Positions 42,751-59,910 of a DNA stretch of 64,000 nt are shown piece by piece. The notes below the pieces were generated by a model. The model did not search any database. It was not told the origin of the DNA and saw only the letters and a list, made by a program, of their open reading frames with translations. A program made the translations under genes and the position numbers. Source of the stretch: Sphingobacteriia bacterium RIFOXYC2_FULL_35_18 (GTDB lineage Bacteria > Bacteroidota > Bacteroidia > Chitinophagales > Chitinophagaceae); NCBI GenBank assembly GCA_001829005.1, contig MIAG01000002.1:175210-239209 (forward strand), in the 5' to 3' direction. Position 1 is the stretch's first letter, and each line of letters begins with the position of its first letter.

Positions 42751-43209
42751 ATGAAAAAATTATATACCCTCTTACTAAGCACCATATACTTGTTACCTGT
42801 TTTTAGTACTCCCCTTTCAAACAATAACCCAGATGCAATTCTCGGGAACTGGAAAACAGGCGAAGGAACTGCTGTTGTTCAAATATTTAAGCAAGGAAGT
42901 AGTTATTTTGGTAAAATAGTTTGGCTAAAAGAGCCCAATAACCCAACTACTGGTAAACCAAGAATAGATGCTAATAATAGTGACCCTTCTAAAAGAAATA
43001 CACCCTTACTTGGATTGGTTAATTTAAGAAATTTCAGTTTTCATAAAAATAACCAATGGAAGGATGGTAAAATATACGACCCAAAATCGGGAGACGACTA
43101 TAGTTGCAAAATAACCATGAAAGACCCTAATACCATTGAGGTACGTGGCTACATAGGTATTTCATTATTAGGCAGAACAGATGTTTGGAAAAGAGAATCT
43201 AAATTATAA
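42751..43209 (+). CDS. DUF2147 secreted protein
   Basis: 152 residues. The signal peptide (MKKLYTLLLSTIYLLPVFS) is followed by a lipocalin-like DUF2147 domain: 'ILGNWKTGEGTAVVQIF', 'SSYFGKIVWLKEP', 'GKIYDPKSGDDYSCKI' and the closing 'VRGYIGISLLGRTDVWKR'. The family's function is unknown; it is exported. It is the only plus-strand gene inside the trp/his block, divergent from trpL and convergent with hisB, whose stop it overlaps by 6 bp. Confidence 0.88.
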   Translation: MKKLYTLLLSTIYLLPVFSTPLSNNNPDAILGNWKTGEGTAVVQIFKQGSSYFGKIVWLKEPNNPTTGKPRIDANNSDPSKRNTPLLGLVNLRNFSFHKNNQWKDGKIYDPKSGDDYSCKITMKDPNTIEVRGYIGISLLGRTDVWKRESKL

Positions 43210-44334
43210 TACCCCTTTGGTGGAAGGCAAATAGTTACTAATAGGATCTCTTTTTACTGCCATACGAATTGCTTTCGCAAAAGCTTTAAATATAGCTTCT
43301 ATTTTATGGTGCTCATTATCTCCTTTGCATTCAATATTCAAATTGCATTTTGCTCCATCGCTAAAGGATTTGAAAAAATGGTAAAACATTTCAGTTGGCA
43401 TTTCGCCAATTTTTTCTCTATTGAATACGGCATTCCAAACTAACCAGTTTCTCCCACCAAAATCAATTAATACTTTTGCATCTGCTTCATCCATCGGTAA
43501 TGCAAAACCATATCGCTCCATCCCACGCTTGTCAGACAATGCTTTTGCAAAAGCTTCTCCCAGCGCAATACCGGTATCTTCAATAGTATGGTGCTCATCT
43601 ATATATAAATCGCCTTTAGTTGAAATAGTTAAATCAATTTTACCGTGTCGAGCAATTTGGTCTAACATATGATCAAAAAAGCCCAAACCGGTTTCAATAG
43701 CTGCTTTACCAGAGCCGTCCATATTTACGTCTATCGAAATACTGGTTTCATTGGTATTTCGTTCATGATGTACTTTTCTAATACCAAGTTTAAGAAAAGA
43801 ATAAATTTCTTCCCATGAGTTGGTTTCTAACACAATCACTTCTTTAAAAGCCAATTCCTGTTCTGGAGTTAACTCATGCAAACCAGATTTAAAATAAATA
43901 GCTTTAGCACCTAAATTGATGGCTAATTGAATATCACTCCATCTATCCCCAATCACAAACGAATTAGGCAAATCAAACAAATCATTACTTATTAAGTGCT
44001 TTAGCAAACCTGTGCCTGGCTTACGGGTAGGCAAGTTTTCAGCAGCAAAACTTTTATCTATAATCATTTCATCAAATTGGAACCCAACAGAGTCAAGGGT
44101 TCTAATCATTAAGTCATGATAAGGATAAAATTGTTCTTCTGGATAAGACGCTGTTCCCAATCCATCTTGATTGGTCACCATTACTTTATAAAAATCAAAA
44201 TCTGCTGCGATTCTAGATAAACTATTGAGCGCCCCTTTAACAAAATTGGTTTTAGCTATTGTGTCAATTTGAAAATCAATTGGTGGTTCTTCTAACACTA
44301 CCCCATCCCTATCTATAAATAAAATTTGTTTCAT
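43204..44334 (-). CDS. hisB: bifunctional histidinol-phosphatase / imidazoleglycerol-phosphate dehydratase
   Basis: 376 residues. The N-terminal HAD phosphatase has 'LFIDRDGVVLEEP' (nucleophile Asp), 'MVTNQDGLGTASYPE' and 'VIGDRWSDIQLA'. The C-terminal IGPD domain has metal-binding His repeats in 'GFFDHMLDQIARHG' and 'IDEHHTIEDTGIALGEA'. It catalyses steps 6 and 8 of the pathway. It starts 2 nt after the cytochrome c gene, so it depends on the same transcript. Confidence 0.96.
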   Translation of the reverse strand: MKQILFIDRDGVVLEEPPIDFQIDTIAKTNFVKGALNSLSRIAADFDFYKVMVTNQDGLGTASYPEEQFYPYHDLMIRTLDSVGFQFDEMIIDKSFAAENLPTRKPGTGLLKHLISNDLFDLPNSFVIGDRWSDIQLAINLGAKAIYFKSGLHELTPEQELAFKEVIVLETNSWEEIYSFLKLGIRKVHHERNTNETSISIDVNMDGSGKAAIETGLGFFDHMLDQIARHGKIDLTISTKGDLYIDEHHTIEDTGIALGEAFAKALSDKRGMERYGFALPMDEADAKVLIDFGGRNWLVWNAVFNREKIGEMPTEMFYHFFKSFSDGAKCNLNIECKGDNEHHKIEAIFKAFAKAIRMAVKRDPISNYLPSTKGVL

Positions 44335-44336
44335 AC

Positions 44337-44753
44337 TTATTTTTTTGCCCTTTGTTTTTTCACTTCTGCAGTAGTTACTACCCCTGCTTTATTCCCGAAA
44401 CTATTTCTAATATAAGTTAGTACATCTGCAATTTGTTGATCCGTTAAAAAAGAATGGGCTGCCATTGGGTTATTGTATTCCTCTCCATTAATTTCAAGTG
44501 GGTCGGTTAATCCATTTAATACAATGTCAATTAATCTTGTTTTACTACCAGTAACATAAACAGTGCCGGCCAATGGAGGATTTAACCTAGGCACCCCATT
44601 CCCATCGGCCTGATGACAAGCTTGACAATACATATCGTACACTTTCTTTCCATTCAACATCAATTTCGATTTGCTTTGTGTAGACTTTTGAGCAAATGCT
44701 CCAACTGAAAGAAAAATCAATCCTATTATTATTATGACAACTTTCAACCTCAT
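44337..44753 (-). CDS. secreted class I c-type cytochrome inside the his operon
   Basis: 138 residues. The signal peptide (MRLKVVIIIIGLIFLSVGAFAQ, in part) leads to a mono-haem domain with CQACH as the haem-binding motif and Met in 'NPMAAHSFLTDQQ' as likely distal ligand; 'LTYIRNSFGN' is the typical C-terminal helix. It most likely accepts electrons from the dehydrogenase encoded 11 nt upstream. Its place between hisC and hisB is unusual and unrelated to known histidine chemistry. The DNA has no visible sign of transfer. Confidence 0.92.
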   Translation of the reverse strand: MRLKVVIIIIGLIFLSVGAFAQKSTQSKSKLMLNGKKVYDMYCQACHQADGNGVPRLNPPLAGTVYVTGSKTRLIDIVLNGLTDPLEINGEEYNNPMAAHSFLTDQQIADVLTYIRNSFGNKAGVVTTAEVKKQRAKK

Positions 44754-44764
44754 GATTATTGCAA

Positions 44765-46009
44765 TTATTTATTGTAAGAAATTTTCCAAACATAACCTGC
44801 TTTATCATCGGATACGTAAATAGATCCATCTTCTCCTTGTGCCAAACCTGTGGGACGATGTTTTGCTGCAGATAGATTTGTAACAGGAGTCATGCCAGAA
44901 AATCCATCTGCAAACACTTCCCATTTCCCAGTAGGAACTCCATCTTTCATAGGAACAAATACCACATAAAATCCTTCTTGAGGCTCTGGTGTTCTATTCC
45001 AACTTCCATGAAAAGCAATAAAAGCACCATGCTTATATTTTGCTGGAAATTGGTTGCCTGAATAAATCAATAAGGCATTCGGCGCCATATGTCCAGGAAA
45101 ACCTACCAACGGGGAAATAGCATTTGGAGCACCTTCTTTTTTGCCGTCTCCTCCATATTCAGGATTCAATATTTTTTTATTCTGAAAATGATCCCAATGT
45201 ATATAAGGCCAACCACAATCATCTCCTTTTTTTACTCTGTAAAAAGTTTCAGAGGGCAATTCAGCACCGCGCTTTTGATCATACATTTCAGGGAAATATT
45301 GGTACAGCATATCTCTTCCATGAATAGTTACATATAAATCGTTCACTTCATTGTTCCAATCAATTCCTAGTGCATTACGCATTCCTGTTGCATATCTTAC
45401 ACCATCATTTAAAGTTTGATTGGTTTTTGTTGTACTAAATTGCCAAATACCTCCTGCATTTTCCAAAATGGGGCAAGGTGTTAAACCAGGGGATCCCTTT
45501 TGTCTGTCTTGTTCTTGACAAACATTTGACGGAGCACCAATATTTACATATAGGTTTCCTTCTTTATCAAAAGTTATTGACTTTGAAGCATGTTGTCTTT
45601 TGTTAATTAAACCATCTACTACTATTTCAGGTTGGTCGGGATTTACAATATTTTGATTGGCATCTAGTTTATATCGATAAATAGTTTGATCAGAAGTGGC
45701 ATATAAATACCCATTATTAATAGCAATTCCCGTACCTGTATAATTACCAAAGGCCAAAGTATCTTCCATAACGCCATCATTGTTCTTATCGCGTAAACGG
45801 TAAATACCTTTCCCATTTACCAAGCGATCTAACTTCATATATAAGTCTCCATTACTGTTCACAGCAATATGTCTAACCCTACCTAAATCATTGGCAACAA
45901 TTTTACTGGAAAAACCGGTGGGCAATTGAATAGGAACTTGTTGCTTTGGTTGAGCAACAACTATATTCAAAACCATTAACATAGCGACTACTAATATTAT
46001 TTTTTGCAT
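44765..46009 (-). CDS. PQQ-dependent glucose/sorbosone dehydrogenase-like protein
   Basis: 414 residues, exported (signal ending VVAQPKQ). It is a six-bladed beta-propeller of the GSDH/sorbosone dehydrogenase type: 'HIAVNSNGDLYMKLD', 'SKSITFDKEGNLYVNIGAPS', 'RYATGMRNALGIDWN', 'DDCGWPYIHWDH' and 'FHGSWNRTPEPQEG'. The His and Arg near 'ATGMRNA' and 'FAFHGSW'-type loops fit the cofactor region, but the PQQ ligands cannot be confirmed by eye. The substrate is unknown. With the cytochrome c gene it forms a periplasmic dehydrogenase module set inside the his operon, 23 nt after hisC. Confidence 0.85.
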   Translation of the reverse strand: MQKIILVVAMLMVLNIVVAQPKQQVPIQLPTGFSSKIVANDLGRVRHIAVNSNGDLYMKLDRLVNGKGIYRLRDKNNDGVMEDTLAFGNYTGTGIAINNGYLYATSDQTIYRYKLDANQNIVNPDQPEIVVDGLINKRQHASKSITFDKEGNLYVNIGAPSNVCQEQDRQKGSPGLTPCPILENAGGIWQFSTTKTNQTLNDGVRYATGMRNALGIDWNNEVNDLYVTIHGRDMLYQYFPEMYDQKRGAELPSETFYRVKKGDDCGWPYIHWDHFQNKKILNPEYGGDGKKEGAPNAISPLVGFPGHMAPNALLIYSGNQFPAKYKHGAFIAFHGSWNRTPEPQEGFYVVFVPMKDGVPTGKWEVFADGFSGMTPVTNLSAAKHRPTGLAQGEDGSIYVSDDKAGYVWKISYNK

Positions 46010-46032
46010 ATATATTATATTAAAGTATGAAT

Positions 46033-47094
46033 TTATGAATTCAATTGATACCAGTCTTGCATAGCTTCCACCAAAATGGTATTATCATGCTCTGAACCTA
46101 CAGTAATTCTTAAGCAATCGTTGCAGAGTTGCACATTACTCCTATCTCTTAATACAATCCCTTTGGTTAATAAAAATTCATACACTTTTCTAGCATCTTT
46201 TATTTTAACCAATAAAAAATTGGCATCAGATGGATACACTTCTTGTACTGTTGGCATCAAATTAAAAACATCTGCTAATGCATCTCTCATATCTACCAAT
46301 AATCGAATCATGTCGTTTACTTGACCCACTTCTTCCAAAGCCTTTAATGCCAACTCTTGTGTTGATTGATTAATATTATATGGAGGTTTAACCCGATTAA
46401 GCACTTCAATAATTGCTGTTGATGCAAAAGCCATACCTAATCTTAATCCAGCTAACCCCCAAGCTTTACTGAAAGTTTGCAATACAACAAGATTTGGGTA
46501 CTCAGTTAATTCTTGAACAAATGATTTTTGCTTTGAGAAATTAATATAAGCCTCGTCTATTATAACTATTCCTTTGAAATTATTTAAAATCGTTTCTATA
46601 TCTATGCGATTAATTGAATTCCCTGTTGGATTATTGGGGGAGCAAATCCAAATTAGTTTAGTATTACTATCAATAGCTTGTTCTATTTCAACCAAGTTTA
46701 ACTGAAAACTAGGCAGCAGAGGAATCTTTTTTAGCTCAATATCATTTATATGAGCACTTACTTCGTACATGCCATAGGTTGGTGGGCATATTATAACATT
46801 ATCTTTTGATGGAATACAAAAACTTCTATACAACAAGTCTATGCATTCATCACTTCCATTACCTAAAAAAATATGTTCTGCAGTAATTCCTTTGACAACA
46901 GCAAGCTTATTTTTTACAGCAACCTGATGAGGGTCAGGATAACGATTATACCATTTAGGTAATGGTGAACCTAAGCTATTCTCATTGGCATCTAAAAACA
47001 CTTTTGCCTCCCCACTATACTCATCTCTTGCAGAAGAATATGGGGTTAATTGAGCAATATTGGGCCTAACAAGGTCATTTAAATTAAACAACAT
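46033..47094 (-). CDS. hisC: histidinol-phosphate aminotransferase
   Basis: 353 residues, fold-type I PLP enzyme. 'VFLDANENSLGSPLP' at the N-terminus, 'LGNGSDECIDLL', 'CSPNNPTGNSI', 'VIIDEAYINFS' and the PLP-lysine motif 'LQTFSKAWGLAGLRLG' are all visible. Normal length. It follows hisD by 5 nt. Confidence 0.96.
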   Translation of the reverse strand: MLFNLNDLVRPNIAQLTPYSSARDEYSGEAKVFLDANENSLGSPLPKWYNRYPDPHQVAVKNKLAVVKGITAEHIFLGNGSDECIDLLYRSFCIPSKDNVIICPPTYGMYEVSAHINDIELKKIPLLPSFQLNLVEIEQAIDSNTKLIWICSPNNPTGNSINRIDIETILNNFKGIVIIDEAYINFSKQKSFVQELTEYPNLVVLQTFSKAWGLAGLRLGMAFASTAIIEVLNRVKPPYNINQSTQELALKALEEVGQVNDMIRLLVDMRDALADVFNLMPTVQEVYPSDANFLLVKIKDARKVYEFLLTKGIVLRDRSNVQLCNDCLRITVGSEHDNTILVEAMQDWYQLNS

Positions 47095-47099
47095 AATAT

Positions 47100-48377
47100 T
47101 TATTTTAATCTCACTCTTACGGCTTCTGCATGGGCTCTTAATCCTTCTGCTTCAGCCATTGTTTCAACCGTTTGTGCAATTGCAGTTAACCCTTCTTTGG
47201 TTAATTGCTGGAATGTAATTTTTTTTATAAAACTATCAACACTTACCCCACTATACATTCTTGCATAGGCATTAGTGGGTAATGTATGATTCGTTCCGCT
47301 GGCATAATCACCTACTGCTTCAGGTGAATAATTACCAATGAAAACAGATCCTGCATTTGAAATTTGTTCGGCAATATCATTGGCATTTACGCAAGCAATA
47401 ATTAAATGTTCTGCAGCATACTCATTAACTAAATCAACTGCATCCGACAAATTACTCATCAACACAGCACGGCTGTTTTGTAATGCTTTTAATGCTAATT
47501 CTTTTCTTGGCAACAGTGCTAGTTGACTAACTAAACATTCATTAACTGTATTAATTAATTGAGCAGAAGTACTAACCAATAATACTTGGCTATCTGGTCC
47601 GTGTTCGGCTTGACTTAATAAATCTGCTGCAACAAAATTGGGTACTGCTGTTTCATCAGCTAATACGCATACTTCACTGGGTCCTGCCGGCATATCAATG
47701 GCAACTCCACTCTGCTGAACCATTTGTTTAGCTGCGGTTACATATTGATTACCTGGTCCAAATATTTTATATACAGCCGGAACGGTTTCTGTTCCATATG
47801 CCATTGCTGCAATTGCTTGTACACCGCCAATTTTATACAACTGCTTTATTCCAACTAGATTGGCTGCAAAAATGATTGCAGGATGTAATTTGCCGTTTTT
47901 ATCTGGTGGAGAGCAAAGTACTACTTGCTTACATTTTGCAATTTCAGCGGGTATACCCAACATTAAAATAGTGGAAAACAAGGGAGCCGAACCACCGGGA
48001 ATATATAAGCCTACTTTATCAATCCCCACCCACTTGCGCCAGCAAGTTATACCAGGCATTGTTTCTATGGGTAATTCTTTATTAATTTGAGCCAAATGAA
48101 ACCTTCTAATATTAGTAGCTGCAGCTTCAATAGCTTTCTTTAATGTTGGGTCAAGCAAATCAATGGCTTCTTTTATTTCTGCTTCAGAAACAAAGGAATT
48201 ATTGAGTTGTACCCCATCAAATTCTAATGTATATTGCTGAACAGCTTTATCACCATTCAGTTTCACCGCATTTAAAACATTCGCCACCTTCTCATTTAAC
48301 AATAAAGTATCTACTTCAGGTCTTTTTGTGATTGCAGGCCAACTTGCTCTTTCAGGAAACTCAAGAATTTTCATCAT
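47100..48377 (-). CDS. hisD: histidinol dehydrogenase
   Basis: 425 residues. Zn and catalytic motifs are 'MPAGPSEVCVLADETA' , 'DLLSQAEHGPDSQVLLV' (His/Gln ligands) and 'GDYASGTNHTLPTNAYA'. It oxidises histidinol to histidine in two NAD-dependent steps. The start ATG at 48377 could also be the second Met. It follows hisG by 3 nt. Confidence 0.97.
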   Translation of the reverse strand: MMKILEFPERASWPAITKRPEVDTLLLNEKVANVLNAVKLNGDKAVQQYTLEFDGVQLNNSFVSEAEIKEAIDLLDPTLKKAIEAAATNIRRFHLAQINKELPIETMPGITCWRKWVGIDKVGLYIPGGSAPLFSTILMLGIPAEIAKCKQVVLCSPPDKNGKLHPAIIFAANLVGIKQLYKIGGVQAIAAMAYGTETVPAVYKIFGPGNQYVTAAKQMVQQSGVAIDMPAGPSEVCVLADETAVPNFVAADLLSQAEHGPDSQVLLVSTSAQLINTVNECLVSQLALLPRKELALKALQNSRAVLMSNLSDAVDLVNEYAAEHLIIACVNANDIAEQISNAGSVFIGNYSPEAVGDYASGTNHTLPTNAYARMYSGVSVDSFIKKITFQQLTKEGLTAIAQTVETMAEAEGLRAHAEAVRVRLK

Positions 48378-48380
48378 AAC

Positions 48381-49256
48381 TTAAATAATCATTTTTTCAA
48401 TTGGAACTACTAAAATTCCCTCAGCACCAGCCGCTTTCAGTTGTTCAATAATATTCCAAAAATCATTTTCATTTAAAACACTATGTACGCTGCTCCAGCC
48501 TTCTGTTGCTAGTGGCAACACAGTAGGACTTTTCATACCAGGAAGCAATCCTATGATTTCATCTAATTTATTATTGGGGGCATTTAGAAGTATATATTTA
48601 TTATTTTTTGCTTTCTTAACCGACTGAATTCTAAAAATAAGTCTTTGCAATAATTGCTGTTGTACTTCATTTAATAGATTATTCTTTATTAATACAGCTT
48701 GAGATTCAAAAATAACTTCCACTTCTTTAAGCCCATTCATAAATAAGGTAGATCCACTACTCACTAAATCACAAATGGCATCAGCTAATCCTATCCCGGG
48801 GGCAATTTCCACACTTCCGCTGATTTCATGAATTTCTGCTTCAATGCCTTTTGTTTTCAAAAAATTGGAGACAATTACCGGATAACTAGTGGCAATTTTT
48901 TTATTCTGCAAAAAATAGGCGTTCTCATATACTTCGTTTCTTTGAACTGCCATACTAAGTCTACACTTACCAAACCCCAGCTTTTCTTCAATTTCTACTT
49001 TTTTATTTTTTTCGAAAACAACATTCTCTCCCACAAACCCAATATCTGCAACCCCATCTTCAACATATTGAGGAATATCATCGTCTCTTAAGAAAAACAC
49101 TTCTATTGGGAAGTTGGTTGCATCTGCTTTCAACTTGTTTACACCATTGCTTATATCTATGCCACATTCCTTCAACAAACGCATAGAATCATCGTGTAAT
49201 CTTCCACTTTTTTGTATGGCCAATCTCAATTTGTAGTTTTCATTATTATTTTTCAT
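48381..49256 (-). CDS. hisG: ATP phosphoribosyltransferase (long form)
   Basis: 291 residues, the HisG(L) form with its own regulatory C-terminal domain, so no HisZ is required. 'LAIQKSGRLHDDSMRLL', 'DDIPQYVEDGVADIGFVG' and 'EIAPGIGLADAICDLVSSG' (PRPP loop) define the catalytic part. The C-terminal ferredoxin-like domain normally mediates histidine feedback. It is the first structural gene after the his attenuator. Confidence 0.96.
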   Translation of the reverse strand: MKNNNENYKLRLAIQKSGRLHDDSMRLLKECGIDISNGVNKLKADATNFPIEVFFLRDDDIPQYVEDGVADIGFVGENVVFEKNKKVEIEEKLGFGKCRLSMAVQRNEVYENAYFLQNKKIATSYPVIVSNFLKTKGIEAEIHEISGSVEIAPGIGLADAICDLVSSGSTLFMNGLKEVEVIFESQAVLIKNNLLNEVQQQLLQRLIFRIQSVKKAKNNKYILLNAPNNKLDEIIGLLPGMKSPTVLPLATEGWSSVHSVLNENDFWNIIEQLKAAGAEGILVVPIEKMII

Positions 49257-49285
49257 GTTCCGTTATTTATTCTTCCTGTTAAAGC

Positions 49286-49314
49286 AAAAAAAAAGCCTAC
49301 CAGTAGGTAAGCTT
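49286..49314 (-). terminator. his attenuator terminator
   Basis: On the minus strand AAGCTTACC (49306-49314) and GGTAGGCTT (49293-49301) form a 9-bp stem with a 4-nt loop, followed by a run of T (49286-49294). It lies between hisL and hisG. The same GGTAGGC string occurs at 49345-49351, overlapping the hisL stop codon, and can replace the distal arm in a competing pairing. Confidence 0.9.
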
Positions 49315-49346
49315 GAATTCAATATATTGGTACAATACACCGATGC

Positions 49347-49397
49347 CTACCCTTTCGGATGCATATGATGGTGATGTATATGTAGATTTTGTATCAT
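49347..49397 (-). CDS. hisL: his operon leader peptide (six His codons)
   Basis: A 16-residue ORF, MIQNLHIHHHHMHPKG, with six His codons among eight between 49359 and 49382, and stop TAG at 49347-49349. The stop lies inside GGTAGGC (49345-49351), which is identical to the terminator's distal arm and can pair 7 bp with the proximal arm GCTTACC. Under histidine starvation a ribosome stalled upstream frees this antiterminator; with histidine available the ribosome reaches the stop, masks it, and the terminator stops transcription before hisG. The predicted transcript starts about 4 nt before the ATG. Confidence 0.92.
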   Translation of the reverse strand: MIQNLHIHHHHMHPKG

Positions 49398-49404
49398 TAT
49401 GTTA

Positions 49405-49436
49405 CAAAACTAAGCCCCTATTTCAACAAAGACAAA
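49405..49436 (-). promoter_or_regulatory. his operon promoter
   Basis: On the minus strand TTTG (49436-49433), a 20-bp spacer and TAGTTTTG (49412-49405), an exact TAnnTTTG. The predicted start is about 49401, only 4 nt before the hisL ATG. Confidence 0.65.
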
Positions 49437-49527
49437 TATTTTTTCTAGTTCACCTTATTGCTGCATTTACTAAACTAATTATTGGTAATTTGAGCAGCAT
49501 TGAATTGCCCAAATAAATTAAGCAAAT

Positions 49528-51945
49528 ATGAAAATGATCAAACATTTATTTACTGTATTAACCTTTCTGGTTACCACCACAATGGTTATTGGCCAAGATG
49601 CCGCCAGTTATCAAAATCCACCTAAAGTAATTGAAGATTTATTACTTGCAAAACCAACACCTTCCGTAAGTGTAGACGGCAAAGGGGTATGGATGTTGCT
49701 TTCTGAACGAAACTCTTACCCTACAGTAGAAGAATTAGGACAACCAGAAATTAGGGTTGCTGGCTTAAGACTAAATCCTAATAACTTTTCTCCAAGCAGA
49801 CAAACGTATATCAACAATTTTCAACTTAAAAATTTAAAAGAAGATAAAGTCTATTCAGTTATAGGATTGCCTGCTACGCTTTTGGCTGGTGCAGTTAGCT
49901 GGAGTCCTTCAGAAACTAAAATAGCTTTTACTCATACAAGTAGTAATAAGGTAGAACTCTATATTATTGATATTGCTACAAAAAAAGCCAGTCTGGTAAG
50001 CAAACGACCATTGAATTCAGTGTTGGGCAACCCTTATACATGGGTAGACGATAACACTATTATTTATAAATCAACCATCTCGTCTGCTGCAAATGCCCCT
50101 AAAAGACCAATTACTCCAAAGGGTCCAACCATACAGCAGAACTTAGGGAAAGCCGCTCCAAGTCCTACCTATCAAGACTTAATAAAAAGCCCATATGACG
50201 AACAATTGTTTCAGTTTTATGCAACAACCCAATTAGTGATTAGTAAAAATGGAGTAGAAACGCTATCTGGCAAACCTTGTATATTAAGTGGTTTCAGCTT
50301 ATCCCCTGATAAAAAATACCTATTACAAAAAAAATTACAGCAACCGTTTTCGTATTTAGTTACGGCAAATGGCTTCCCATCTAAAATGATTATAACCGAT
50401 TTAGCTGGAAAAACAATCAAAATTGTAGCCGAATTACCTTCAACAGAAGGCACCCCTTCAGGTTATGATAATACACAGAATGTCCCAAGAAGTTTTGATT
50501 GGAGAGATGATGAAGCGGCAACTATTACTTGGGCAGAACCTTTAGATAGTGGACTCATTAAAAAACAAGTGGAATTTAGAGACGCTGTATATGCATTGAG
50601 TGCCCCTTTTACAGAAAAGGCCTCATTGCTATTCAAAACCAAATTAAGATATGGAGGCACTACTTGGGGCAATGAAAATATTGCATTAGTAAATGAAATT
50701 TCAAGAAGCAAGCAGTTAGTTAGAGTAAACCTTTTCAATTCAAGTAAAGGAAGTTTAGAATTATTACTAGAGCGTAACCAAACAGATGCTTATGGCAACC
50801 CAGGTTCACCAGTTACTAGTAAAAATAAATATGGTCGCAACGTAATTACCACCATAGAAAATGGAACAAAATTATTGATGAATAACACTACAGGATCTTC
50901 TCCAAATGGAGATTTACCATTTTTAGCAAAGTTTGATTTAACTACTAAGCAAAATGAAATTATTTGGAGATCCAATGTAGGCAGTTTTGAATTTATAGTA
51001 GAAGTATTGGATGCCAATAATTTGATTTTACTAAGTAGAAAAGAATCACAAAAAGAAGTACCCAATTATTTTATTAAAAATCTACGGCTTAGAATAGCAG
51101 ACAGAGCTATCACAAATTTCACCAACCCATACCCTGCTTTAGAAGGGGTTACAAAAGAAAAAATAAAATATAAAAGAGCAGACGGGGTAGATTTAACTGG
51201 TGATTTATATTTACCAAGTGGATACAGTAAAGACAAAGGCCCTCTTCCTTTAATTATTTGGGCTTACCCAAGAGAATTCAACTCTGCAGCTGATGCTGCA
51301 CAAATTAGAGGAAGTAAAGACAGATTTACTACCTTAAGTTGGGGTTCCCCAATTTACTATGTAACTCAGGGCTATGCCGTTTTAGACAATGCAGAAATGC
51401 CCATTGTTGCTGCAGGAAAAGATAAAAAACCCAATGACAACTTTATTGAACAATTGAAATTGAACGCCGCATCTGCTATAGAACATTTATCAGGATTAGG
51501 TATCGCAGACAAAAATAGGGTTGCTGTTGGTGGTCATAGTTATGGCGCATTTATGACTGCCAATTTATTGGCACATACCAAATTGTTTAAAGCAGGTATT
51601 GCTAGAAGTGGTGCATATAATAGAACACTTACTCCATTTGGATTTCAAAATGAAGATAGAACCTATTGGCAAGCCCCAGAATTGTATTACAATATGAGTC
51701 CATTTAGTTACGCAGATAAAATTAAAACACCTATCTTATTAATACACGGCGAAGCAGACGACAATACGGGTACTTACCCAATTAATAGCGAGCGACTATT
51801 TGCTGCAATAAAAGGAAATGGTGGAACGGTAAGATTTGTTTACTTGCCTTATGAGGCGCATGGATACAGAGGCAAAGAAAATGTTTTACATACACTATGG
51901 GAGCAATTCCAATGGCTTGAAAAGTATGTAAAGAATTCAAAATAA
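49528..51945 (+). CDS. S9 family prolyl oligopeptidase-like peptidase
   Basis: 805 residues. Signal peptide (MKMIKHLFTVLTFLVTTTMVIGQ, in part), beta-propeller N-domain, and a complete alpha/beta-hydrolase catalytic domain: Ser in 'AVGGHSYGAFMTANL', Asp in 'LLIHGEADDNTGTYP' and His in 'YLPYEAHGYRG'. The arrangement resembles glutamyl endopeptidase/S9C-type enzymes. It is periplasmic. It is divergent from hisL and ends in a terminator shared with the CHASE gene. Confidence 0.9.
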   Translation: MKMIKHLFTVLTFLVTTTMVIGQDAASYQNPPKVIEDLLLAKPTPSVSVDGKGVWMLLSERNSYPTVEELGQPEIRVAGLRLNPNNFSPSRQTYINNFQLKNLKEDKVYSVIGLPATLLAGAVSWSPSETKIAFTHTSSNKVELYIIDIATKKASLVSKRPLNSVLGNPYTWVDDNTIIYKSTISSAANAPKRPITPKGPTIQQNLGKAAPSPTYQDLIKSPYDEQLFQFYATTQLVISKNGVETLSGKPCILSGFSLSPDKKYLLQKKLQQPFSYLVTANGFPSKMIITDLAGKTIKIVAELPSTEGTPSGYDNTQNVPRSFDWRDDEAATITWAEPLDSGLIKKQVEFRDAVYALSAPFTEKASLLFKTKLRYGGTTWGNENIALVNEISRSKQLVRVNLFNSSKGSLELLLERNQTDAYGNPGSPVTSKNKYGRNVITTIENGTKLLMNNTTGSSPNGDLPFLAKFDLTTKQNEIIWRSNVGSFEFIVEVLDANNLILLSRKESQKEVPNYFIKNLRLRIADRAITNFTNPYPALEGVTKEKIKYKRADGVDLTGDLYLPSGYSKDKGPLPLIIWAYPREFNSAADAAQIRGSKDRFTTLSWGSPIYYVTQGYAVLDNAEMPIVAAGKDKKPNDNFIEQLKLNAASAIEHLSGLGIADKNRVAVGGHSYGAFMTANLLAHTKLFKAGIARSGAYNRTLTPFGFQNEDRTYWQAPELYYNMSPFSYADKIKTPILLIHGEADDNTGTYPINSERLFAAIKGNGGTVRFVYLPYEAHGYRGKENVLHTLWEQFQWLEKYVKNSK

Positions 51946-51956
51946 ATTGACAAAAT

Positions 51957-51996
51957 AAAAAAAGTCCCAGTTGCCTTCGGTAGCTGGGACTTTTTT
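51957..51996. terminator. bidirectional intrinsic terminator
   Basis: A long, nearly perfect stem (AAAGTCCCAG with CTGGGACTTT, extended by TTGCC/GGTAG, loop TTC) spans 51961-51993, flanked by A-run and T-run on the two sides. It can terminate the S9 peptidase transcript on the plus strand and the CHASE-gene transcript on the minus strand. Confidence 0.88.
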
Positions 51997-52822
51997 ATTT
52001 AACCTGCATACGTTTACAATGTAAGAGGAGACTAAAAATTAGTGAAAAAACAATTCCACCTAAAGAAAATATTATTGATCTTTTCAAGTATACGGGATTT
52101 CGCAGCTTAACTTGTATAATCCAATCGCCAATAGGCATATATTGTTCATGAACAATACCTGTTGAAAACTTAGCAGCATGCACATTAAATAAAGGAATAT
52201 AATTATTACCCTCTTGTTGTTTTTTTATTTGATAGAAAAAAGATTTATTCATGCCAGTACTATCTAATCCAAGAAAACGAATAAATCTTTCTTTTTTAAT
52301 AATAACAGCCGAATAACCCCACAAAGTGTCGTGTTGAATAATTGGATATCTCCCTACAAAACCAACTCCGCCTTGTCTTAATTTAAATGGCCCCTCAAAA
52401 TGAAGACCATTTGAACTGGAAGTCAACATCACTTCCCTTATATGCCCACTATTTGTTCCTAAATCATATCCAATAGTTTGTTCATTCCCTTTTAAAGGAT
52501 AGGTATTAATGATAACCATGTCTCGAACCAACTGAATTGCGTCTAAATATTCGTTATGCTTCAATAGCTCTTTTGCAACTTCCTCAAAATGATCTTTTAG
52601 CAAATCATGCTCTATCATAATAGCAATCATGCTAGTAGCATTATTGCTTTGGCTTAAAGCTGCTTCAATTCGTTGTTTAACATGTGCTGACTCATTTTGC
52701 ACTAATTCTATTTCCCTCGCTTTTTCAACAGTAAAAATATACCAAGCAACTGCTTGGGTAATTGCAATTGAGATTACAAAAACCCAAACAGCTGCATATT
52801 TATATTGAAAAAAGCGAAGCAT
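51995..52822 (-). CDS. stand-alone CHASE-domain membrane protein
   Basis: 275 residues. An N-terminal membrane helix ('YAAVWVFVISIAITQAVAWYIF', in part), a CHASE-type extracytoplasmic domain ('VKQRIEAALSQSNNATSMIA', 'AIQLVRDMVIINTYPLKGNE', 'GPFKLRQGGVGFVGRYPI'), and a C-terminal helix ('SIIFSLGGIVFSLIFSLLL') with only about seven residues after it. CHASE domains normally feed a histidine kinase or cyclase in the cytoplasm; none follows here, and the gene ends at a terminator. It could be a remnant, or a sensor that signals through a partner. No frameshifted kinase sequence is seen beyond its stop, where the plus-strand peptidase begins. Confidence 0.78.
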   Translation of the reverse strand: MLRFFQYKYAAVWVFVISIAITQAVAWYIFTVEKAREIELVQNESAHVKQRIEAALSQSNNATSMIAIMIEHDLLKDHFEEVAKELLKHNEYLDAIQLVRDMVIINTYPLKGNEQTIGYDLGTNSGHIREVMLTSSSNGLHFEGPFKLRQGGVGFVGRYPIIQHDTLWGYSAVIIKKERFIRFLGLDSTGMNKSFFYQIKKQQEGNNYIPLFNVHAAKFSTGIVHEQYMPIGDWIIQVKLRNPVYLKRSIIFSLGGIVFSLIFSLLLHCKRMQVK

Positions 52823-52892
52823 GAACTATTGGTAAAAAATCATTTGATAAATGCAATTTAAGTTATACAAAATAGTTCAGATGATTCAATAT

Positions 52893-55748
52893 TTAGTATC
52901 CCAACCCCCAATCTCTACCTTTTAAAACAGCAGGCACTCCTTCCGCTATCCATTTAGCAGGCTTATCTCCTTTTAGTAAATAATCAAAAAATTGCTGTTC
53001 GCGTATTTGAATATCCTTTCGATTTCTACGCTCTACTAAATTATGGTCTTCATTGTTATAATTCAACATCCAAACAGGCTTTCCTAATCTTCTAAGCGCT
53101 GTAAACATTTCAATTCCCTGGTACCAAGGAACTGCTCCGTCCGCATCATTATGCATGATAACAACAGGCGTTTTTACTTTCGGGAAATGAAATAATGGTG
53201 AGTTTTCTATGTACAAATTGGGTTTCTCCCATAATGTAGCACCAATTCTACTCTGTGTTTTTTCATATTGAAACTGTCTATTTAAACCAGTACCCCAACG
53301 GATTCCACCATAAGCACTAGTCATATTTGCAACAGGGGCACCTGCCCAAGCTGCAGCATATAAATTGGTACGTGTAATCAAATGTGCAATTTGATATCCA
53401 CCCCAACTTTGGCCCTGTAACCCTAATTTGGTACTATCCACATATCCTTTTGCAACCAATGCCCTTGTTCCACTTACAATATAATCATATGCACCTTGAC
53501 CAGGATATCCAGTTTTATACCAAATGTCTGGGACAAACACAATGTATCCTCTGCTAACAAAAAATGGAATATTTAATCTTGAAGGAGTTGGCGCAGGTGC
53601 ACTATATCCGTATAATCCATCGCTGCTTCTTTCATAGAAATAGGCAATCATTGGATATTTTTTGTTTGGATCAAAATCTTCTGGCTTATACACAATTCCT
53701 TCAGCTGTTTTTCCTGTATAAGCTTTCCATGTGAATAATTCAGCTGTTCCCCAATTATATTGAGATTGCTGAGGATTAGGTTGATGCAAAGATTGTGCTG
53801 TTTGCACATCTTGTAGAATTGAATTTGGCTGCCAATCTATAACAGAAATATTTGATGAACGCTGAAATGTTTCTGTTCCAAAACTAATTACCGCGGCATC
53901 TTTAGCTTTAGACACAGCAGAAATCCTCAAAGGCAAAGTAGCAGTTGAAGCAGCTATATCAAACAAAGTACCCATTATATGCGTCTTTAAACCAGCCCCC
54001 TTATTCTTTCTATTGAAAACGTTTAGCATTAAAGTTTGATTCTTTTTAATAAATCTAGCTTCTCTATCTAAAGTAATATTTCTTAAAACAAGATTATTTT
54101 TTCTACCTAACCCACCGGTAATATTAATAGAAGGTTTTGCTCCCATTGGATCAATTTGCCAAATATCAAATTGATCATAAATCAATAATGATTCATCATT
54201 TTCCAACCAACCAACTACCCCATAAGCATTAGGATCATCTGGAACATCATTTTCAATATCATATAATGGCACTTTAATATCAGCAGCGATGGGGGTCATT
54301 TTTTGAGACTCACTTGCATAGGCAGAATATTTTTTCTTTACTTCATCATACACAACTAAGTATTTGCCTGTTGATGAAGGATAAGTATTCCCTTTTATAT
54401 CGCGAAGTATCAATTGCTTATTTCCAGTTAATGGATTAATGGCATACAAATCAGCAAACGAAGCCCCTTGCCACTGGGAAGCAATTCTTTTTCCCTCGTC
54501 TGATACCCCATAAAAAACAGCCCCATCTCCTTCATTCGTTTGAATAATACTTCTAAAAGCTGGACTACCAATTTGCACTACTGTACCTTTATCAAAATCA
54601 AATCTTGCCAAATAAGCTCGATTGAGCTCTTGCTGTAGGTTACGCAATTGAAAAGGCTGTAAATAATCGTCTTTATAATGCCATACGTCAACACTTACTT
54701 TTTCAAGGTCAGGCGTGATAGTATCTTTTACAGGCAAAATTGGGCCAGTCCCAAAAAATAACCGATTCCCTGTTTTACTAAAGCTAATTGCTTGTGTATT
54801 CTCACTTAATTTGAAATTTGTAGGCATACCACTGGTATTTTTTTGTACCAATAAAACAGCGCTATCTGTACCATCCTTGTGGTAATATAATTTATAAAAT
54901 TTTTGAAGTGATTTAGTACTACTGTCTCTCTCGGCAATAAATGCCAATTGATTTCCAACCTCATCCATTCTATAAGCTTTGGCATCATTAAATCCAGTTA
55001 AAACAATTGCCTTTTTCTTATTCATCAAATCAACTTTAACTACTTGGGGTTTAATTTTAGCATCGCCAGTCTTTTTGGTAGTTTCAAGTAACAAAATATT
55101 TCCTTTTTTATTAAAGAAATATTCACTTACTAAATGATAAACAATAGTATCACCTGTTATTAAATTTTGAACTACTAAATCTGTTCCTTCTTCAAAAGGT
55201 TCTGTAGCAACTCTTGGTGTGGGGGGAGCAACGGGCCCTAATGACTTAGCTGAACTATCTGTTTGAGTATTCTTTGGTGCTGGAGTGGCCGGCTTTTTTT
55301 CTAAATGATAAGCAAGAAACTGCGCTTGCTCATCTGAAATTTTAAAACTTTTAACCTGCGCTACTTTGGTAATTTTACCAGTGTTTAAATCTACAATTGC
55401 CAAAGAATCCTTAGGCATTTCGTCAGGACGCTTCTTTTTAATTTTAGCTTCTCTAGTATCTTTAAAAAATGGTTTAATTCTACAAATCAAAAAACGACTA
55501 TTGTCGGTCATATTAGCGTTGTATCCTCTTGCAATTTCAGCTACATTAGATCCATCTTTTTTCTTGATGTACAAGTGTCCATCACCTTCTTGAGGCACAA
55601 CTGTAAAAGCAATATAGTTTCCATTATCGCTAATTAAACGTTCTGCAATATTTTGCCATCCATCATATACACTATGATCCAATGGTTTTTTTTGAGCTGA
55701 ACTAGCAATAGTCAGGAATAAGAAAACAATAAATGGGGTAAGTCTCAT
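52893..55748 (-). CDS. S9 family peptidase (large prolyl oligopeptidase-like)
   Basis: 951 residues. Signal peptide (MRLTPFIVFLFLTIASSAQ), long beta-propeller region with a Pro-rich linker around residue 165 ('KKPATPAPKNTQTD'), and a C-terminal catalytic domain with Ser in 'LGLQGQSWGGYQIAHL', Asp in 'VIMHNDADGAVPW' and His in 'NNEDHNLVERR'. All three catalytic residues are present. It is periplasmic. The frame has an ATG two codons upstream (55754). Confidence 0.9.
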   Translation of the reverse strand: MRLTPFIVFLFLTIASSAQKKPLDHSVYDGWQNIAERLISDNGNYIAFTVVPQEGDGHLYIKKKDGSNVAEIARGYNANMTDNSRFLICRIKPFFKDTREAKIKKKRPDEMPKDSLAIVDLNTGKITKVAQVKSFKISDEQAQFLAYHLEKKPATPAPKNTQTDSSAKSLGPVAPPTPRVATEPFEEGTDLVVQNLITGDTIVYHLVSEYFFNKKGNILLLETTKKTGDAKIKPQVVKVDLMNKKKAIVLTGFNDAKAYRMDEVGNQLAFIAERDSSTKSLQKFYKLYYHKDGTDSAVLLVQKNTSGMPTNFKLSENTQAISFSKTGNRLFFGTGPILPVKDTITPDLEKVSVDVWHYKDDYLQPFQLRNLQQELNRAYLARFDFDKGTVVQIGSPAFRSIIQTNEGDGAVFYGVSDEGKRIASQWQGASFADLYAINPLTGNKQLILRDIKGNTYPSSTGKYLVVYDEVKKKYSAYASESQKMTPIAADIKVPLYDIENDVPDDPNAYGVVGWLENDESLLIYDQFDIWQIDPMGAKPSINITGGLGRKNNLVLRNITLDREARFIKKNQTLMLNVFNRKNKGAGLKTHIMGTLFDIAASTATLPLRISAVSKAKDAAVISFGTETFQRSSNISVIDWQPNSILQDVQTAQSLHQPNPQQSQYNWGTAELFTWKAYTGKTAEGIVYKPEDFDPNKKYPMIAYFYERSSDGLYGYSAPAPTPSRLNIPFFVSRGYIVFVPDIWYKTGYPGQGAYDYIVSGTRALVAKGYVDSTKLGLQGQSWGGYQIAHLITRTNLYAAAWAGAPVANMTSAYGGIRWGTGLNRQFQYEKTQSRIGATLWEKPNLYIENSPLFHFPKVKTPVVIMHNDADGAVPWYQGIEMFTALRRLGKPVWMLNYNNEDHNLVERRNRKDIQIREQQFFDYLLKGDKPAKWIAEGVPAVLKGRDWGLGY

Positions 55749-55836
55749 GTTCATATTAATTTTGGATATTCCGAAGATAATTAAACAATAGGCAAAACCT
55801 ATTGTTGAACTTAGGTATTTGATAAATGGACGAATT

Positions 55837-58287
55837 ATGAAGCATTTCTCTTTGTTACTAGTGATACTATTTACCCTATTTCAATCAAAAGCACAAAACA
55901 CCGGTGTTTTTTCTGGAATAATTATAGATAAACAATTACAAAAGCCCATACAAGGCGCTGTGGTTAAATTGGTTCAATTAGAGAAATCAGTAATTACAGA
56001 TAGTGCGGGTAAGTTCCAATTTAATCAAATCAAATCTGGATATTACTCATTCATTTTCAGCGCATTAGGATACTCAACTCAATCAAAATTCAATGTAACA
56101 ATTGCCAGTGGAAATGAAAATACGATGGTAATTGAATTAGAATCAACTGTTCAAGAATTGTCAGCTGTAACCGTAAACAGCACCAATCGGAACAAATCGG
56201 CAAAAGCAGCTACATTAGAAACTCCACTTAGTGTTCAAAGATTAACCAGCGAAGAAATAAAAGCCAACCCAGGAGGAAACTTTGATATATCTAGAGTAAT
56301 ACAAGCATTGCCTGGCGTAGGAGGCTCATCTAGTACTGCTGGATTCAGAAACGATATCATCATAAGAGGCGGGGCACCTAATGAAAATGTATTTTATTTA
56401 GATGGAATAGAAATTCCGGTTATCAATCACTTTGCAACACAGGGCAGTGCGGGAGGACCAACTGGAATTTTAAACGTCAGTTTTATTGAAGAAGTCAAAC
56501 TTTCTTCTTCAGCATTTGATGCAAGATTTGACAACACGCTTTCTTCTGTATTTGAATTTAAACAGAAGCGAGGCAACAGTAATCGAGTACAAGGAAATAT
56601 TCGCTTAAGCGGTACAGAGTTAGCAACTACTTTTGATGGGCCAATTGGAAAATCGGGCAAAACCACTTTCTTAGCATCGGCTAGAAGAAGCTATTTACAA
56701 TTACTATTCAAAGCAATTGATTTACCTATTAGACCTAATTATTGGGATTTTCAATATAAAATTGCTCATCAGCTAAGTAAAAAAACAACCCTAACCCTAC
56801 TAGGCGTAGGGGCAATCGATGAGTTTAATTTTGCTGCCCCTAAAGAAGCTACACCAGAAAAATTATACGTACTGAACAGCAACCCATCTATTCAACAGTG
56901 GAATTATACAATTGGAGCATCAGTTAGGCATCAATTAACAAATGGTTATTGGAACTTGGCAATTAGTAGAAACGCATTCAATAACCAATTAGAAAAATTC
57001 GAAAACAACTTGGGCCCAATCAGGGGCAATAAAACACTTGCGTTAAAGTCTACCGAAGTAGAAAACAAATTAAGATTTGATGTAAACCAAACATTTTATG
57101 GATTTAAATTGAGCTATGGGCTCGTAGCACAATTGGTTTCTTTCAATAATAATACCAATCAATTAATTAGTAACGCCATTGTAGACAACAACAACAATAT
57201 TGTTCAACCTGCAGTTATTTACAATTTTAATAGCAAAATTCAGTTTGCAAGAATGGGCGCATTTACTCAGGTAGGAAAACGTTTTTTGGATAACAGATTG
57301 GGGATAAGTGCGGGTATTCGATTTGACCAAAACACATTTACTCAAACAGGCATGAATCCGTTAAAAACATTATCGCCAAGGGTTGCAGCAAGTTATGTAA
57401 TCACAGATAAAATTACTTTCAATGCATCAATTGGAACCTATTTTAAAATGCTTCCATATACTGCTCTTGGATATCAAAATAACAATAATGAATTGGTTAA
57501 CAAAAACACCGATTATACTCAAAGTACCCATTATGTGGCTGGATTTGAATACCTGCCATCAACTGCTACTCGATTTACAGTAGAGGGCTTCTACAAACAA
57601 TACAATAATGTACCCATTAGTGTTAGAAATGGCATTAGCTTATCAAACCAAGGGGCAGACTTTAATGTGTTAGGAAATGAAGCAGTGAATACAACAGGTA
57701 GAGGTAAAGCCTATGGCTTTGAATTTTTTGCACAACAAAAACTTACACAACGATTTTATGGAGTGTTCAGCTATACCTGGTTTGTAAGTAAGTATACCAA
57801 TGCCAATAATACCTATACTTCAAGTTCATGGGATAATCGACATTTATTAAGTGCTGTGATTGGATACAAAATGAAAAGAAACTGGGAAATCGGGCTCAAA
57901 TTTAGGTACCAAGGTGGAGTACCCTTTACACCCTATGATTTAATTGCAAGTAGACAGAACTACCTAGCACTAGGAACAGGCATTCCCGATTACAATAATA
58001 TTAACACCCAACGTTTAAACGCATTCAATAGTAGTGATATTAGAATAGATAAAAAATGGTATTACAAGAGATTTACCTTAGACTTATTTGTAGATATTAC
58101 CAATTGGTATTTAGCTAAAAGTCCAGCACAAGCATCCTATACCTTTCAACGGAATACTACTAACACTGGCTTTCTTACAACTGATGGACAACCTATACAA
58201 AATAATGGCAGCAATGCAATACCGTTCTTATTAAGTAATAATGATGCAAACGTTACGCCAACTATTGGATTTATTATTGAGTTTTAG
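55837..58287 (+). CDS. TonB-dependent receptor
   Basis: About 816 residues. Signal peptide (MKHFSLLLVILFTLFQSKAQ), a carboxypeptidase-regulatory-like domain ('GIIIDKQLQKPIQGAVVKL'), a canonical plug ('TPLSVQRLTSEEIKANPGG', 'DIIIRGGAPNENVFYLDGIE') and a C-terminal beta-barrel ending in an aromatic residue (IIEF). The clear plug makes this a truer TonB-dependent receptor than the two other barrel proteins. The substrate is unknown and no SusD gene is adjacent. The frame is open six codons upstream (55819). Its end overlaps the convergent EamA gene by 14 bp. Confidence 0.92.
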   Translation: MKHFSLLLVILFTLFQSKAQNTGVFSGIIIDKQLQKPIQGAVVKLVQLEKSVITDSAGKFQFNQIKSGYYSFIFSALGYSTQSKFNVTIASGNENTMVIELESTVQELSAVTVNSTNRNKSAKAATLETPLSVQRLTSEEIKANPGGNFDISRVIQALPGVGGSSSTAGFRNDIIIRGGAPNENVFYLDGIEIPVINHFATQGSAGGPTGILNVSFIEEVKLSSSAFDARFDNTLSSVFEFKQKRGNSNRVQGNIRLSGTELATTFDGPIGKSGKTTFLASARRSYLQLLFKAIDLPIRPNYWDFQYKIAHQLSKKTTLTLLGVGAIDEFNFAAPKEATPEKLYVLNSNPSIQQWNYTIGASVRHQLTNGYWNLAISRNAFNNQLEKFENNLGPIRGNKTLALKSTEVENKLRFDVNQTFYGFKLSYGLVAQLVSFNNNTNQLISNAIVDNNNNIVQPAVIYNFNSKIQFARMGAFTQVGKRFLDNRLGISAGIRFDQNTFTQTGMNPLKTLSPRVAASYVITDKITFNASIGTYFKMLPYTALGYQNNNNELVNKNTDYTQSTHYVAGFEYLPSTATRFTVEGFYKQYNNVPISVRNGISLSNQGADFNVLGNEAVNTTGRGKAYGFEFFAQQKLTQRFYGVFSYTWFVSKYTNANNTYTSSSWDNRHLLSAVIGYKMKRNWEIGLKFRYQGGVPFTPYDLIASRQNYLALGTGIPDYNNINTQRLNAFNSSDIRIDKKWYYKRFTLDLFVDITNWYLAKSPAQASYTFQRNTTNTGFLTTDGQPIQNNGSNAIPFLLSNNDANVTPTIGFIIEF

Positions 58288-59155
58288 TTTTGTTCTTGAA
58301 TACAACTCTTATCATTTGTAATACAACTGATAAGATAATTAATGCAACCCCATAATAAAAGCTTTTAGAGAGGTGTTTATTTTCGTCAAATAAAACAAAC
58401 GCCATAATGATTGCATAAACTGGTTCTAAATTTAGACTTAGGTTTTGGGTAAATGCAGAAACTTTTTTTAAAGAGTCTAGCATGAGCTGCATTGCTACTA
58501 TGGTGCAAAGCCAACTCAATACAATTAACCATCCCCAATCTGATAATGTAGGAATTAGACTCATTTCAGGAAAAAAATAGCCATAAGCCGGCATTAGCAA
58601 AGTTAGAACCAGCAAGCCTCCCGTTAATTCATATAACATAATCACAAGGGGCTCTGCTTTATTCACTTGTTTTTTATTTAGCACAGAAAACAATGCAGCT
58701 AAAAATGCAGAAATAATTCCTACAATAATTCCGGTTTGATAACGCTGATCAAAATGAAAAATCAGGTAAATACCCAATAAACTAATTAGCCCTAAACCAA
58801 GTTCTGCCCATTGTATTTTTTTAGTAACCAATAAAGGCTCTAATAAAGCAGTAAATAGGCCTGTTGCAGAAAAACAAACTAATCCAATAGAGACATTCGA
58901 TAATTTAATACTTCCATAAAAAGCGACCCAATGTAATGCAATTAAGCAGCCAATTAATAAAAATCGAATAACAGTACTTTTTGGGAGTTGGGCAGACTTG
59001 CCAGTTATTTTAAATAATACCGATAAGCTAACTACGGTAATCATGATTCTATACCAAACCAAACTCATTTCATTCAAACTAATCAAAACACCTAATATAC
59101 CGGTAAAGCCTGCTAAAAAAACAGAGATATGTAATTTGATTAGTGCTTGCTTCAC
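58274..59155 (-). CDS. EamA/DMT-family transporter
   Basis: 293 residues with about ten hydrophobic segments in two five-helix halves, the EamA (DMT) layout. 'NEMSLVWYRIMITVVSLSVLF' in part and 'ALHWVAFYGSIKLSNVSIGL' are typical of the first half; 'SLNLEPVYAIIMAFVLFDE' (in part) is typical of the second. Substrates of DMT exporters include amino acids and metabolites, but none can be assigned. It is the last gene of a minus-strand run (mpl, exonuclease, glycosyltransferase, transporter), 8 nt after the glycosyltransferase. Confidence 0.86.
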   Translation of the reverse strand: MKQALIKLHISVFLAGFTGILGVLISLNEMSLVWYRIMITVVSLSVLFKITGKSAQLPKSTVIRFLLIGCLIALHWVAFYGSIKLSNVSIGLVCFSATGLFTALLEPLLVTKKIQWAELGLGLISLLGIYLIFHFDQRYQTGIIVGIISAFLAALFSVLNKKQVNKAEPLVIMLYELTGGLLVLTLLMPAYGYFFPEMSLIPTLSDWGWLIVLSWLCTIVAMQLMLDSLKKVSAFTQNLSLNLEPVYAIIMAFVLFDENKHLSKSFYYGVALIILSVVLQMIRVVFKNKTKTQ

Positions 59156-59163
59156 AATTATAT

Positions 59164-59907: not shown

Positions 59908-59910
59908 TGC

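Follow-up and report, generated by a model that had tools for sequence, protein, structure and literature searches.

Among the known systems closest to the element described here is the attenuator of the his operon of E. coli and Salmonella (hisL; Rfam His_leader), which likewise stands in front of the his operon and combines a short leader peptide rich in His with an antiterminator and a terminator that exclude each other; a leader peptide of 18 aa with seven consecutive His residues is cited in PMC3896937. A His leader peptide combined with a premature terminator is also found at the hisZ/hisS paralogues of bacilli (PMC2965389). The authors of that paper saw no similarity between the leaders of Firmicutes and those of Proteobacteria, and stated in 2010 that, to their knowledge, no phyla other than Proteobacteria and Actinobacteria had been shown to have such regulation until they described their Firmicutes cases. 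Within the Bacteroidota, a structured 5′ element precedes hisG in F. psychrophilum and is kept in other Flavobacteriaceae, with no Rfam match in the account given by PMC9723704, and the same source finds strong indications that amino-acid operons are preceded by leader-peptide attenuators. Small ORFs resembling leader peptides are described within long 5′ UTRs of B. thetaiotaomicron (PMC7366714). Finally, the trpL leader RNA of S. meliloti has its 5′ end at the ATG, so that it may be translated as a leaderless mRNA (PMC7298713).

We analyzed a window of 64,000 nucleotides, in which a first-pass annotation had placed a histidine attenuator with a six-His leader peptide ahead of hisG. The stretch in question, 49436-49286, is read on the minus strand, and all of the elements named in that annotation (TTTG-N20-TAGTTTTG, a 16-codon ORF MIQNLHIHHHHMHPKG and a terminator) were confirmed base for base. 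We also counted six His codons in the leader, and the identity of hisG was established by both Pfam and NCBIfam. It is highly likely that the element works as a ribosome-mediated transcription attenuator, with charged tRNA-His as the signal and with hisG and the genes that follow as its targets, a reading that is strongly supported by sequence comparison with relatives. Put simply, a decoy His leader and two competing hairpins very probably turn the his genes on only when histidine is short.

Unlike hisL of E. coli and Salmonella, the element has a different RNA sequence without a His_leader match, a Bacteroidota promoter, a predicted 5′ UTR of 2-3 nt, and an arm copy that contains the leader stop. 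The F. psychrophilum element shares with ours the phylum and the gene that it precedes, and may be a counterpart of it. The S. meliloti leader differs in that it encodes Trp instead of His and that its RNA start is known, whereas ours is deduced from promoter spacing, and the bacillar His leaders belong to other genes in another phylum. The his element is thus a well-defined addition to a known attenuator type that has been little described in Bacteroidota, where attenuation of hisG has already been hinted at for Flavobacteriaceae (PMC9723704). It shows in detail how amino-acid attenuation could be built in a phylum whose promoters are unusual and which lacks Shine-Dalgarno sequences. Since attenuation requires that a ribosome follow the polymerase closely, a near-leaderless leader makes initiation and coupling testable in these bacteria.

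The first gene of the operon is hisG, which encodes ATP phosphoribosyltransferase (48381..49256, minus strand; PF01634/PF08029, TIGR00070) and whose product in the source genome is 98% identical to HisG of Sediminibacterium sp. (Chitinophagaceae, Bacteroidota). It is followed on the same strand by hisD for histidinol dehydrogenase (47100..48377; PF00815, TIGR00069), hisC for histidinol-phosphate transaminase (46033..47094; TIGR01141 above cut-off) and, further down and possibly on the same transcript, a bifunctional hisB (43204..44334; NF003937 above cut-off). The controlled genes hisG, hisD and hisC make histidine, the amino acid that is sensed. Glucose/Sorbosone dehydrogenase and cytochrome c genes are situated between hisC and hisB (44337-46009, minus strand).

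Leader peptide and promoter

The leader ORF MIQNLHIHHHHMHPKG (49347..49397, minus strand) extends from ATG to TAG over 16 codons, and its six His codons comprise five CAT and one CAC, with a Met breaking the His run. Over the whole 64 kb, the window contains one small ORF of 8-30 aa with at least five His residues, where 20 Markov resamples averaged 0.45, and a resampled intergenic stretch of 271 bases held such a His-rich ORF in 6 of 3000 cases. The His ORF alone is only moderately improbable and would not be decisive; what is decisive is its conservation.

For the comparison we used 110 hisG loci, these being the closest relatives offered: a set of loci from 30 genomes, namely the source genome and the best of the 41 relatives in which a match was obtained, and the best 80 of 338. 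Removal of six loci that were exact duplicates over their last 300 nt left 104 distinct upstream regions, although near-identical hisG loci remain among them and the two sets (L001-L030 and L031-L110) share species. An ATG-started His leader was present in 102 of the 104 regions, and the other two (L058 and L066) had a His leader with a non-ATG start. The leaders in the 102 regions were 9-21 codons long and contained at least three His residues (three in 6, four in 23, five in 61 and six in 12 of them). When the leaders were anchored on their longest His run, which makes position 1 His by construction, position 2 was His in 101 and position 3 in 95 of the 102; His also stood two residues ahead of the run in 89. 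Both synonymous codons are used across the leaders (393 CAT and 94 CAC). The peptide positions outside the His run are mostly variable, and a Leu-Pro-x-Gly end, which is encoded by the RNA arms, is common but not universal.

His-rich peptides can bind metals, and conservation of the His residues would also be seen if the terminator merely set a fixed low level of hisG and the peptide had its own job, for example in metal binding. We consider this very unlikely, since the arm at the stop is conserved along with the terminator, even in those leaders where the stop has moved, and since the same layout carries Trp codons before trpE and Lys codons before asd, in each case matched to the pathway. 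The attenuator reading is the one that we follow below.

The predicted promoter of the leader, TTTG-N20-TAGTTTTG (49436-49405, minus strand), is composed of a -33-like element, TTTG (49433..49436), and a -7 box, TAGTTTTG (49405..49412), with the sigma-ABfr consensus TAnnTTTG; from these two boxes and their counterparts in relatives, the promoter appears to be of the sigma-ABfr type. We found TAnnT[TC][TC]G at 2-14 nt 5′ of the leader ATG in 92 of the 102 relatives, against a background of 157/9520 for all ATGs on one strand of the 110 loci, a figure that itself contains many of the His leaders. The same spacing rule applied to the hisG starts gave 0/102. Where a -7 box could be recognised (92 relatives), a TTTG lay 17-24 nt 5′ of it in 83 cases, compared with 675 of 6593 arbitrary positions in these regions. 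A transcript start downstream of 49397, which the first-pass annotation had regarded as contrary to its proposal, finds no favor in the promoter boxes, the TAnnTTTG box being present between the leader ATG and hisG in 0/102 regions versus 16/102 control stretches.

The end of the -7 box lies 4-12 nt from the leader ATG in 92 of the 102 relatives (28 at 4 nt and 29 at 7 nt). In F. johnsoniae, transcription begins 4-5 nt past this -7 box (PMC6847099), and on the basis of that spacing the leader transcript of the window would start at about 49400-49399, 2-3 nt 5′ of the leader ATG; the same rule therefore predicts leader 5′ UTRs of 0-8 nt in the relatives. Judged by promoter spacing, the his leader would thus be nearly leaderless, in a phylum in which leaderless mRNAs are rare, amounting to 5.5% in F. 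psychrophilum (PMC9723704), with 5′ UTRs of <10 nt making up ~3.7% in B. thetaiotaomicron (PMC7366714). As a separate observation, the distances from the -7 box to the ATG cluster at 4, 7 and 10 nt (65/92), that is, in steps of three, for which kinship is a possible cause.

RNA segments and folding of the switch

Three of the RNA segments on which the switch would depend could be located directly in the minus-strand sequence. Segment 2 (GGTAGGC, 49345..49351), the putative antiterminator arm, lies over the TAG stop of the leader; segment 3 (AAGCTTACC, 49306..49314) is the proximal terminator arm and would be a partner of both segment 2 and segment 4; and segment 4 (GGTAGGCTT and the U-run, 49286..49301) is the distal terminator arm. 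The exact duplication of the distal arm over the leader stop, which the first-pass annotation had named as making the switch unusually easy to recognise, is borne out by the two copies of GGTAGGC at 49351-49345, containing the TAG, and at 49301-49295; the motif occurs four times on both strands of the 64 kb. The terminator is AAGCTTACC-TACT-GGTAGGCTT within a nine-T run (49314-49286), and a consensus scan of 49200-49560 detected this one alone (shuffle mean 0.0). We rejected the possibility that it serves another gene: the gene upstream is transcribed divergently (49528, plus strand), so that no other transcript needs this terminator, and only when read on the minus strand does the hairpin have a T-run after it.

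The terminator pattern was present in 101 of the 102 ATG-leader regions, and in L089, the sole region without a match, a variant hairpin can be made out by eye. This bears on the alternative that the RNA controls translation or reinitiation at hisG and not termination. Leader genes in Bacteroidetes peak 11-14 bp before the genes that follow, which the authors of PMC4833913 interpret as reinitiation; in the present case, however, the leader stop is 90 nt from the hisG start, the leader ATG is 107-210 nt away in the 102 relatives, and the terminator pattern that recurs so regularly is U-tailed. Control at the level of translation is therefore highly improbable, and we return to attenuation at the terminator.

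An alignment of 101 leaders (leaving out the six duplicates, the non-ATG leaders L058 and L066, and L089, which has no pattern match) allowed us to investigate the pairing of the arms. All eight 3:4 terminator pairs were formed in 100 of the 101 leaders and seven of eight in the remaining one, with covariation from GC (67) to AU (33) and from CG (70) to UA (21), and 99.9% of terminator cells were paired as compared with 95.4% when partners were swapped between sequences. The His codons and duplicated arm singled out in the first-pass annotation have thus been conserved together, the former in 102/104 leaders and the latter as complete 2:3 pairing (7/7) in 97 of the 101, with 6/7 in the other four. 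The 2:3 helix was paired in 99.4% of cells versus 99.3% after partner swaps, and the antiterminator structure had a covariation score of 0.138 versus 0.151 when slid by +1 column. With the swap and slide controls not passed, the predicted antiterminator rests on conservation and not on covariation; low variation is expected for a sequence that pairs with two partners. For the terminator-state structure as a whole, changes on both sides were seen in 116 cells, where column shuffles gave 52.1 and a slide by +1 gave 101, and the covariation score was 0.211 against 0.201 when slid by +1. Such whole-structure figures are weak when taken alone.

Two further hairpins were predicted by folding; neither had been mentioned in the first-pass annotation, nor had the near-leaderless start or the Trp attenuator described below. 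In the untranslated leader of the window, segment 2 would be held in a 1:2 hairpin, TGCATCC-GAAA-GGGT..GCA (49344..49363, minus strand), with seven pairs and a GAAA loop, in another register than that of the alignment columns. By those columns the window's own clade has 3-4/7 pairs for 1:2, the register in most relatives being CTTACCC:GGGTAGG, and the helix was 85.0% paired across the 101 relatives versus 83.5% after partner swaps. A middle hairpin (49319..49343, minus strand) lies within the antiterminator; on the alignment, 7/8 of its pairs showed changes on both sides and 67.7% of its cells were paired, compared with 62.9% after partner swaps, so that its register is tentative.

The leader stop falls inside segment 2 in 92 leaders. 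In six leaders (L043, L050, L077, L084, L092 and L095) it comes before segment 2, and in three (L101, L107 and L110) the ORF reads through segment 2, with the arm being kept in either case. The leaders with a moved stop amount to a natural separation of code from structure.

The masking of segment 2 by a ribosome that finishes the leader, and its exposure by one stalled at the His codons, had been put forward as the logic of the switch. We modeled ribosome cover as 12 nt beyond the codon read (value from PMC4833913), and a helix was counted as formed with at least 5/7 pairs for 2:3 or at least 6/8 pairs for 3:4. When the RNA had been made up to segment 3, the antiterminator folded in 101/101 leaders for one or more of the His codons on which a ribosome was placed, and the RNA past a stop-bound ribosome folded into the terminator in 101/101. 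That a stop-bound ribosome leaves no antiterminator is a direct consequence of masking segment 2 and cannot count as an independent test. In the absence of a ribosome, the terminator was formed in 90/101 and the antiterminator in 11/101. Taken with the conserved 2:3 pairs, these modeled folds lend support to the proposed switch, whose logic they follow. A ribosome stalled at codon 13, the last His codon, would itself cover segment 2.

With the complete RNA, stalling on one or more of the His codons made the antiterminator the best fold in only 69/101 leaders and not in the window, where the terminator was the best fold even under a stalled ribosome once segment 4 had been made. The switch must therefore be kinetic, with the order of synthesis being what matters. 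The order of RNA synthesis matters in known attenuators as well.

The mechanism that we propose can be described as follows. Translation would be initiated on a transcript that begins 2-3 nt 5′ of the leader ATG. With ample His-tRNA, the ribosome would reach the TAG within segment 2 and cover this segment, whereupon segments 3 and 4 would pair and the polymerase would stop at ~49286. When His-tRNA is scarce, the ribosome would stall on His codons 6-11 and leave segment 2 free, so that segments 2 and 3 could pair, enclosing the middle hairpin, while segment 4 is still to be made; with the antiterminator formed, the polymerase would continue into hisG. If the leader is not translated, the 1:2 hairpin would hold segment 2 and the terminator would form.

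Range of the element and Rfam comparison

A covariance model built from the 101 aligned leaders matched 116/395 genomes of the class (E up to 0.1) and 30/296 genomes of a phylum sample (E up to 0.01), the two samples overlapping. We examined 53 matches, consisting of the 29 best new class loci and 24 new loci of the phylum sample. A position at most 200 nt before hisG, together with a His-rich ORF, was found for 49 of the 53, six of which were outside the class (L145, L150, L155, L158, L162 and L166). The other four matches (L151, with E 1.1e-4, L163, L164 and L165) were not before hisG, and the model is therefore not perfectly specific.

T-boxes stand before his genes in other lineages (PMC2965389, PMC3896937), and histidine could in principle be sensed here by a T-box, by a metabolite riboswitch or by a leader that binds a protein, leaving the ORF incidental. 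Against this, scans with the T-box and riboswitch families of Rfam, run without a positive control, gave no match at E up to 1 in 44000-60000 and nine loci and none at the gathering score in the whole window, and the leader is only ~105 nt long and mostly explained. Sensing of this kind is therefore improbable in the extreme, and a peptide-coding attenuator remains our preferred explanation. The Rfam His_leader family likewise had no match at E up to 1 in 44000-60000 and the nine loci, again without a positive control, and no Rfam family reaches its gathering score at the his leader. Several hits below gathering score were set aside as look-alikes, namely SorY, which covered both leader and terminator (E 0.022), STnc40 (E 0.62) and, at L158, RAGATH-27, snoU30 and sroH (E 0.096-0.4), of which sroH overlaps the leader.

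Leaders before trpE, asd and ilvD

The same window carries a Trp attenuator before trpE (42516-41104, minus strand), with the layout seen at the his genes. Its leader, MIIINKHWWWHSNSLRG (42654-42601, minus strand), has a GGGG copy of the terminator arm at its end, and the terminator itself is AGCCCCGG..CTGGGGCT with a T-run (42565-42537, minus strand). A WWW leader was present in 16/30 trpE-like loci; among the 14 without one, contig ends truncate L203 and L210, while the others come from other families or are second copies. The folding of the Trp and Lys leaders follows the logic of the his leader, and the terminator wins again on the full Trp RNA.

The second match of the covariance model in the source genome was a Lys leader, MTMIKNIKRNKKPR, which precedes asd together with an arm copy and a terminator (L112 1501-1614, minus strand) on contig C1, the window being on contig C2. 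Lys leaders of the form K(H/N)(T/I)K(R/Q)xKKP were found in 21/30 asd loci, comprising 21/24 in the genus of the source genome and 0/6 in other families, and a GGAAGG-like copy of the terminator arm follows the leader stop. The codon preceding the stop and the triplet following it make three pairs in 15 of the 21, with changes on both sides (CGC/GCG in 8, CTC/GAG in 3, CTG/TAG in 3 and CTA/TAG in 1). A strict Lys-leader pattern was matched in 8/294 genomes of the family, an undercount, as the pattern misses the source genome itself; these belong to three genera, two of them beyond the source genus, and all eight matches lie before asd, while a reversed control of the pattern matched one genome.

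The model trained on His leaders only also scores the asd Lys leaders of the source genome and of G010, G011, G017, G021 and G358, and the set of sensors is therefore mappable from sequence. To our knowledge, a lysine-specific leader-peptide attenuator is known nowhere else, and a search of open PubMed Central papers gave none on such a device, judged by titles and the beginnings of abstracts. Of all our findings, the Lys leader was the one least to be expected. We hold it to be an even question whether there is a Bacteroidota-wide set of leader-peptide attenuators for His, Trp, Lys (including the one at asd) and probably branched-chain amino acids, each with an arm copy at the stop and a leaderless or nearly leaderless start. 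Leaderless leaders would let ribosomes load once the 5′ end emerges, in a phylum that does without Shine-Dalgarno sequences.

Upstream regions of ilvD were read at 15 of 20 loci. There was no leader before the ilvD of the source genome (L236), and branched-chain-rich leaders, MNNKQLSVILSIIISVVNIY and MSTSLTQLLLWLSLLYLH, were seen in L229 and L232.
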